Assembly: GCA_027006785.1 (NCBI GenBank)
Contig: JALTFR010000018.1
Location: 1 to 60,986, forward strand
Length of the DNA: 60,986 bases
DNA from: Thermoplasmata archaeon
GTDB taxonomy: Archaea; Thermoplasmatota; Thermoplasmata; WALJ01
Direction of reading: 5' to 3'
Of the stretch, positions 29,831 to 57,439 are shown one piece after another. The notes beneath the pieces are model-generated. The model searched no databases. It was given only the letters and a program-made list of their open reading frames with translations, and was not told the DNA's origin. Numbering within the stretch: the stretch's first letter is position 1; the number at the start of each line of letters is the position of its first letter. Made by a program: the position numbers and the translations under genes.

Positions 29831-29961
29831 AGCCCCTAGTGTCACGAACTCCTTACAGGAGTTCTGGTCGCAAAGGCAATACTTTGCTCCCACGACCTTC
29901 GCTCAGCAAAGGTCTGCTCGTGCCGGCGTAACGGCACTCGAGCGGTCAATCATCTCGGACT
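29831..29961 (+). pseudogene. 5'-half copy of tRNA-Gln interrupted by a 98-nt hairpin chain
   Basis: AGCCCCTAGTGT (29831-29842) plus AGCGGTCAATCATCTCGGACT (29941-29961) equal the first half of tRNA-Gln at 29982. Confidence 0.85.
29843..29940 (+). mobile_element. 98-nt hairpin-chain insertion
   Basis: CGAACTCC/GGAGTTC, GCAAAG/CTTTGC, GACCTT/AAGGTC and TGCCG/CGGCA hairpins inside the tRNA-Gln half copy. Confidence 0.65.
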
Positions 29962-29981
29962 GAAATCCCTTACAACATAAC

Positions 29982-30054
29982 AGCCCCGTAGTGTAGCGGT
30001 CAATCATCTCGGACTCTGGATCCGAGGACGGCAGTTCGAATCTGCCCGGGGCTA
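29982..30054 (+). tRNA. tRNA-Gln (CTG)
   Basis: AGCCCCG/CGGGGCT acceptor, anticodon loop CTCTGGA, T-loop GTTCGAATC. Confidence 0.9.
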
Positions 30055-30175
30055 CTAACCAACTTTTAACCCATTAACAGGGGCAGATGAGAACAAGGTT
30101 TTCACCGATAGGATGTAAGCGAAGCGCCAGCTATTTTTCCGAGGTGCGCTTTGCCCGAAGGGGAAAGGGCACTGA

Positions 30176-30191
30176 GAATCTGCCCGGGGCT
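30176..30191 (+). repeat. tRNA-Gln 3'-end copy 2
   Basis: GAATCTGCCCGGGGCT, followed by the shared ACTAACCAACTTTT. Confidence 0.9.
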
Positions 30192-30274
30192 ACTAACCAA
30201 CTTTTCTCCAACCACCTGTGGGGAGATTCGAACCAGACCTTTTTAACCTACTGCACAGTAAAAGGTCGTGGCGA

Positions 30275-30290
30275 GAATCTGCCCGGGGCT
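30275..30290 (+). repeat. tRNA-Gln 3'-end copy 3
   Basis: GAATCTGCCCGGGGCT. Confidence 0.9.
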
Positions 30291-57121: not shown

Positions 57122-57163
57122 CTAATCCATTATCGAATCGTTATGGATTCGTCAATACGATCG

Positions 57164-57202
57164 AAACCGTTTACTCCGTCTGTGCAGGGGTAGCCAAGCC
57201 AG
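57164..57202 (+). repeat. 39-nt direct repeat carrying the first 19 nt of tRNA-Leu
   Basis: AAACCGTTTACTCCGTCTGTGCAGGGGTAGCCAAGCCAG; second copy 57302-57340 with one mismatch. Confidence 0.92.
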
Positions 57203-57301
57203 AGTCCGGGCCTTTTCTTCGGGCCGGTCTGCGCTGGCTCGCCCTCTGAAGAAAAGCACCGGATGGAAAAGAAGCTCGGGTTCACCTGCTCGCCGGCCGA
57301 T
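57203..57301 (+). mobile_element. 99-nt structured element, family 2
   Basis: Lies between the 39-nt direct repeats; CTTTTCTTC / GAAGAAAAG / GAAAAGAAG triple; homologous to the minus strand of about 2461-2546. Confidence 0.65.
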
Positions 57302-57321
57302 AAACCGTTTACTCCCTCTGT

Positions 57322-57405
57322 GCAGGGGTAGCCAAGCCAGGTCAACGGCGCCAGATTCAGGGTCTGGTCCTCAGTGGTTCAAGGGTTCGAATCCCTTCCC
57401 CTGCA
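57322..57405 (+). tRNA. tRNA-Leu (CAG)
   Basis: GCAGGGG/CCCCTGC acceptor, anticodon loop TTCAGGG, variable arm, T-loop GGTTCGAATCC. Confidence 0.9.
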
Positions 57406-57439
57406 CTCGCTCTTTACCCTCGCTCGTGCAGTTGCCTTC

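Follow-up and report, generated by a model that had tools for sequence, protein, structure and literature searches.

Natural triple helices in genomes have mostly been inferred from low-complexity sequence, and in H-type pseudoknots with an A-rich loop 3 this loop runs antiparallel to the purine strand of stem 1. The bacterial intrastrand triplex motif TM_ECO of the ITxF database is 37 nt long and G/C-rich, has loops of 3-6 nt, and was reported to be unlinked to mobile elements (PMC4666352). Islands that target tRNA genes regenerate the target gene and leave a displaced fragment of it at their other end (Islander, PMC4383910; PYG1, PMC9897764).

We describe here a non-coding element of about 95 bases that is scattered across many genomes of the archaeal Thermoplasmatota, where it adjoins tRNA genes and gene ends. 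Two copies lie in the window, the whole stretch of 60,986 nucleotides that was analysed. Among published systems, the bacterial intrastrand triplex motif (PMC4666352) comes closest to the fold and the tRNA-gene island to the insertion pattern, but the element does not match either on all of its defining features. We lean towards the view that it forms the core of an integrative, non-autonomous DNA element in Thermoplasmatota, whose single strand adopts a pseudoknotted fold in which a purine tract serves as third strand.

As in the ITxF motifs, a pyrimidine arm, its purine complement and a mirror purine third strand follow each other in order in an intergenic, multi-copy sequence, and the layout of a purine (class II) intrastrand triplex, with Y, complementary R and mirror-R arms on one strand, is present. 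Unlike in TM_ECO, the tracts are A-rich, loop 1, about 27 nt long, contains one half of another helix interleaved with the first, and the copies sit at target duplications. The element shares its short, non-coding, multi-copy and structured character with REP/RAYT palindromes and MITEs. In contrast to REP/RAYT systems, the Y1 transposase (PF01797) is absent from the element-bearing genomes G000 (that of the window), G003 and G015, which excludes this enzyme as a common factor. The element also differs from MITEs, since its flanking repeats measure 23-214 bp in place of a short fixed target duplication, and it has no terminal inverted repeats, its Y and S3b ends not being inverted copies of one another.

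Layout and distribution

The order of segments is S1a (equal to Y), S3a, a conserved T[G/C]CGCT, S2a, 3 nt, R, a linker, M, NTC, S2b, TGCTC and S3b. In the plus-strand copy the S1a/Y arm, CGGGC followed by the Y tract CTTTTCTTC (57207-57220, with Y at 57212-57220), pairs with the R tract GAAGAAAAG (57248-57256). S3a (GGGCCGG, 57221-57227) pairs with S3b (GCCGGCC), which together with the conserved TGCTC spans 57287-57298, and S2a (GGCTCGCCC, 57236-57244) pairs with S2b (GGGTTCACC, 57278-57286), interleaved with Y:R. The mirror tract M (GAAAAGAAG, 57266-57274) is the putative third strand. This copy is wedged between two versions of one tRNA-Leu segment. An orphan, truncated duplicate of the tRNA-Leu 5' piece with its promoter region (57158-57206) ends at the left edge of the element, and the intact version (57298-57343; 92% identity over 49 nt) continues on the right into the intact tRNA-Leu (57322-57406, plus strand).

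The minus-strand copy directly follows the 3' end of a tRNA-Pro (2546-2619). Its S1a/Y arm is CGGGCTCTTTCTTT (2530-2543), with the Y tract CTTTCTTT at 2537-2530, and is followed by S2a (GGCTCACCC, 2506-2514), R (AAAGAAAG, 2495-2502), the mirror tract (GAAAGAAA, 2476-2483), S2b (GGGTGGGCC, 2464-2472) and TGCTC plus S3b (2452-2463). On direct check, the tract positions given for both copies in the initial annotation were correct to the base, and so were the spacings (Y-R 27 and R-M 9 in the plus copy, 27 and 11 in the minus copy) and the conserved flanks. The description of a "triplex-capable element" was apt in part; it had overlooked the S2+S3 hairpin, the tRNA and gene-terminus context and the flanking direct repeats.

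Further genomic copies had been predicted and were found. A covariance model was trained on 18 copies, including both window copies, which score E 4e-20 and 3e-27 against this model trained partly on them. Of 400 class genomes searched with the model, 21, from 11 genera, carry the element, as do two genomes of the phylum outside this class. Named relatives that carry it are Thermoplasmata MAGs, and all five genomes examined from the family of the window carry it. Thirteen genomes counted in depth contain 6-32 matches each. An earlier search within the window's own genome had yielded ten hits, nine of which are real and adjoin tRNA genes or tRNA fragments. About 138 copies were aligned in total. 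The conserved core is about 95 bp long, and the length reaches 95-270 bp with extra hairpins. In the long forms L012, L013, L024 and L036 another repeat, CGGCTTTTCCCC..GGAAAA..GGGGAAAA, is inserted within R, and it again comprises one Y and two purine tracts.

Interleaved helices

The second hairpin, S2+S3, is interleaved with Y:R in the order A B A' B', which is a pseudoknot topology. Y:R pairing is retained in 863 of 882 cells (98 copies). Changes on both sides were seen in 15 of 26 helix pairs, with a covariation score that none of 500 shuffles reached (MAFFT alignment). In the S2+S3 helix, 493 cells carry double changes against a shuffled expectation of 173 (115 copies, in an alignment that was fitted to S2+S3). 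Of 1461 cells in this hairpin, 1366 are Watson-Crick, 16 are G.T and 30 are A.C. Only 0-3 nt separate Y from S3a, so the whole of S2+S3 may be unable to coexist with Y:R; perhaps full pairing needs a kink in the conserved internal loop, or the two folds alternate. Comparison by eye with K-turn and HDV-like folds gave no matching motif.

The strand order is that of an H-type pseudoknot, in which loop 3 runs antiparallel to the purine strand of stem 1. Unlike in such pseudoknots, loop 3 and stem 1 are in a base-specific G-to-G register, stem 2 is about 20 bp long, and there is almost no loop 1. The element might thus be read as a structured RNA (a processed tRNA or 5S trailer, a leader or an attenuator) in which an A-rich loop 3 occupies the Y:R groove and which was spread secondarily by transposition. 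The classical H-type layout with its A-rich loop, the covariation of the helices and the many copies that directly follow tRNA or 5S genes all fit this idea. However, G.U cells are almost absent and fewer than A.C cells, no curated Rfam model matches the element, and its orientation follows the gene terminus, being antisense at the 3' ends of coding genes and sense at their 5' ends. Since G.T pairs are nearly absent and orientation tracks the terminus and not transcription, DNA is favoured over RNA as the folded molecule, and we regard the RNA explanation as unlikely.

Insertion pattern

The element targets tRNAs, 5S rRNA and the ends of coding genes. Coding targets, named from their translated sequence without database search, include the 3' end of aspS, the 5' end of an mvhD-like gene, the start of an etfB-like gene and a gene ending in ...VPADTVWVVDW. 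Direct repeats of 23-214 bp flank about 40 of 113 copies and abut the element; the left repeat stops a few bases at most from where the element starts, and the right repeat begins mostly 0-40 nt past the element end. The left boundary is exact, and in many copies one flank holds a displaced, diverged version of the gene end. At the 21 coding loci with a clear answer, the intact gene was on the right. Seven calls went the other way, most of them at tandem, tRNA or 5S sites, where extending the ORF tells nothing about which side is intact. Insertions at tRNA 3' ends have the intact tRNA to their left, mostly without a detectable repeat.

The orphan and intact gene copies differ in a way that keeps the protein, with 135 of 184 differences in one codon phase (counted in the best phase per locus, which is a mild upward bias). 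The two repeat copies therefore come from diverged homologues, and a simple target-site duplication is disfavoured. Occupancy varies between relatives. Within one genus the aspS end is empty in G042 and G034 and occupied, at different codons, in G014 and G087, and the rpoN-tRNA-Pro locus is occupied in the window genome and empty in its relative G002. At three places (G003:C18:2044, G003:C13:8064 and G015:C106:11012) a tyrosine-integrase gene lies no more than about 1 kb from an element and a tRNA gene.

A regenerated target with a displaced fragment, found in about 40 of 113 copies, is the published signature of tyrosine-integrase islands (PMC4383910, PMC9897764). The copies could accordingly be remnants of larger islands, namely a conserved attachment-site arm that remained after the island body was lost, and the three integrase genes near elements agree with such an origin. 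Yet the insert is non-coding and 95-270 bp long, no integrase gene fits it, and the repeats are merely about 100 bp apart. There is also no one fixed crossover per target, as the integration point varies within the same gene end at aspS. Searches of plasmids and phages gave no match; of nine pattern matches in viral contigs, eight look like chance and the ninth, L167, is marginal (model E 0.004). The window genome, which is 90% complete, yielded no tyrosine integrase (PF00589). We consider remnants of islands quite unlikely as the source of the element.

Other structures were seen nearby. Truncated duplicates of tRNA 5' halves, reaching to the anticodon, lie directly upstream of the intact tRNA at 29840-29985 of the window and at L004, L009, L178 and L180. 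Inside their D-arm they carry hairpin arrays in which two types alternate, linked by TGCTC/TGGTC, and they probably form a related family of insertions. A second family, AAGCG[A/G]AGCGCC...TTTCCGAGGTGCGCTTTGCC...GGGCACT, occurs inside duplicated tRNA 3' ends (window 30060-30290, L008 and L015). The tRNA-Pro downstream of L030 carries, immediately 3' of its anticodon, an anticodon-loop insert with a minimal Y-R-M set, CTTTCTTT ... AAAGAAAG ... GGGAAAGAAA.

The mirror tract

For the three-way test, R was the purine run that comes first downstream of S2a, and M was placed at a fixed distance from S2b, so that neither was picked for its mirror match. Over 8 positions in register, R-M mirror identity was 0.82 (77 distinct copies). 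Permuting M gave 0.69 globally and 0.74 within genomes, with 0 of 2000 permutations reaching the observed value, and composition-shuffled M gave 0.64 with a maximum of 0.69. The match was repeated at 21 further loci (0.80 versus 0.65; 0 of 5000). The concerted change of the three segments reported initially for two copies hence exceeds that of shuffled purine tracts, and loss of the mirror from copies that keep Y-R is not the general pattern, since 88 of the 108 copies agree with it at 7-8 of 8 positions. An early impression from four divergent copies that M was independent of R was dropped after 110 copies had been parsed.

Run lengths gave information regarding the direction of the match. 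The A-run before the G in R and the A-run after the G in M are correlated (Spearman 0.95), agreeing as 3/3, 4/4, 5/5 and 6/6 with several classes within single genomes, whereas the comparison expected of a direct copy gave rho -0.50. These opposite correlations exclude M as a second direct copy of R, that is, as an alternative Watson-Crick partner of Y. That the copies are ordinary hairpin or T-rich terminator repeats with a chance mirror match is highly improbable: the tracts are A-rich and T-runs could terminate archaeal transcription, but the permuted, shuffled and new-locus controls rule out chance or low complexity as the source of the match, and the S2/S3 covariation contradicts this explanation as well.

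The mirror register is supported only over the 5-9 nt adjoining stem S2; the far-side A-runs of R and M are uncorrelated (rho 0.008). The purine motif allows A or T on A-T and G on G-C. The base facing the G of R is G in 65 cases, A in 24, C in 9 and T in 6, and in a sub-family (G464, L099 and L191) it is C. The purine motif does not allow C at this position, and with the far A-runs uncorrelated as well, the data fall short of establishing a textbook purine triplex over the full tract. The Pu.Pu.Py geometry proposed in the initial annotation is partly supported: the register near S2 agrees with it, whereas the far A-runs and this sub-family do not. Judged from the aligned sequences, the mirror is real and constrained in shape near S2. 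A mirror copy cannot arise via DNA copying, and selection on shape is therefore its natural cause.

Proposed model

The multi-copy nature of the element, its two interleaved covarying helices, the mirror register, the boundaries and the presence/absence differences between relatives are supported directly. From these we infer that the strand folds in vivo in a triplex geometry, and that an enzyme acts on it and transfer between species takes place. In the proposed integrative DNA element, M would lie antiparallel along Y:R in the pseudoknot, either forming purine-motif triads or as a loop strand bound in the groove, and a recombinase acting in trans would recognise the folded single strand. 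The unit would move between strains as "element plus gene-end segment", and the incoming segment would restore the target gene and displace its original end, as tRNA-targeting islands do. A tyrosine integrase is a possible enzyme. Counting against this model are that no recombinase was found, the crowding of Y and S3a, the far half of M, which does not track R, and the insertions at tRNA 3' ends that lack repeats. We advance more tentatively, as a doubtful proposition, that integration of this mobile archaeal DNA element needs a strand folded as a pseudoknotted triple helix, and that the element carries the target gene-end segment between species and repairs the gene at each insertion.

More than 70 distinct copies show strand-specific, in-register concerted change of a kind impossible via DNA copying, which makes it possible to test directly for selection on a three-stranded fold. 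Should the DNA reading hold, these archaea would harbour an integrative element that is small, has an unusual fold for its recognition and is flanked by homologue-derived repeats of unusual length.
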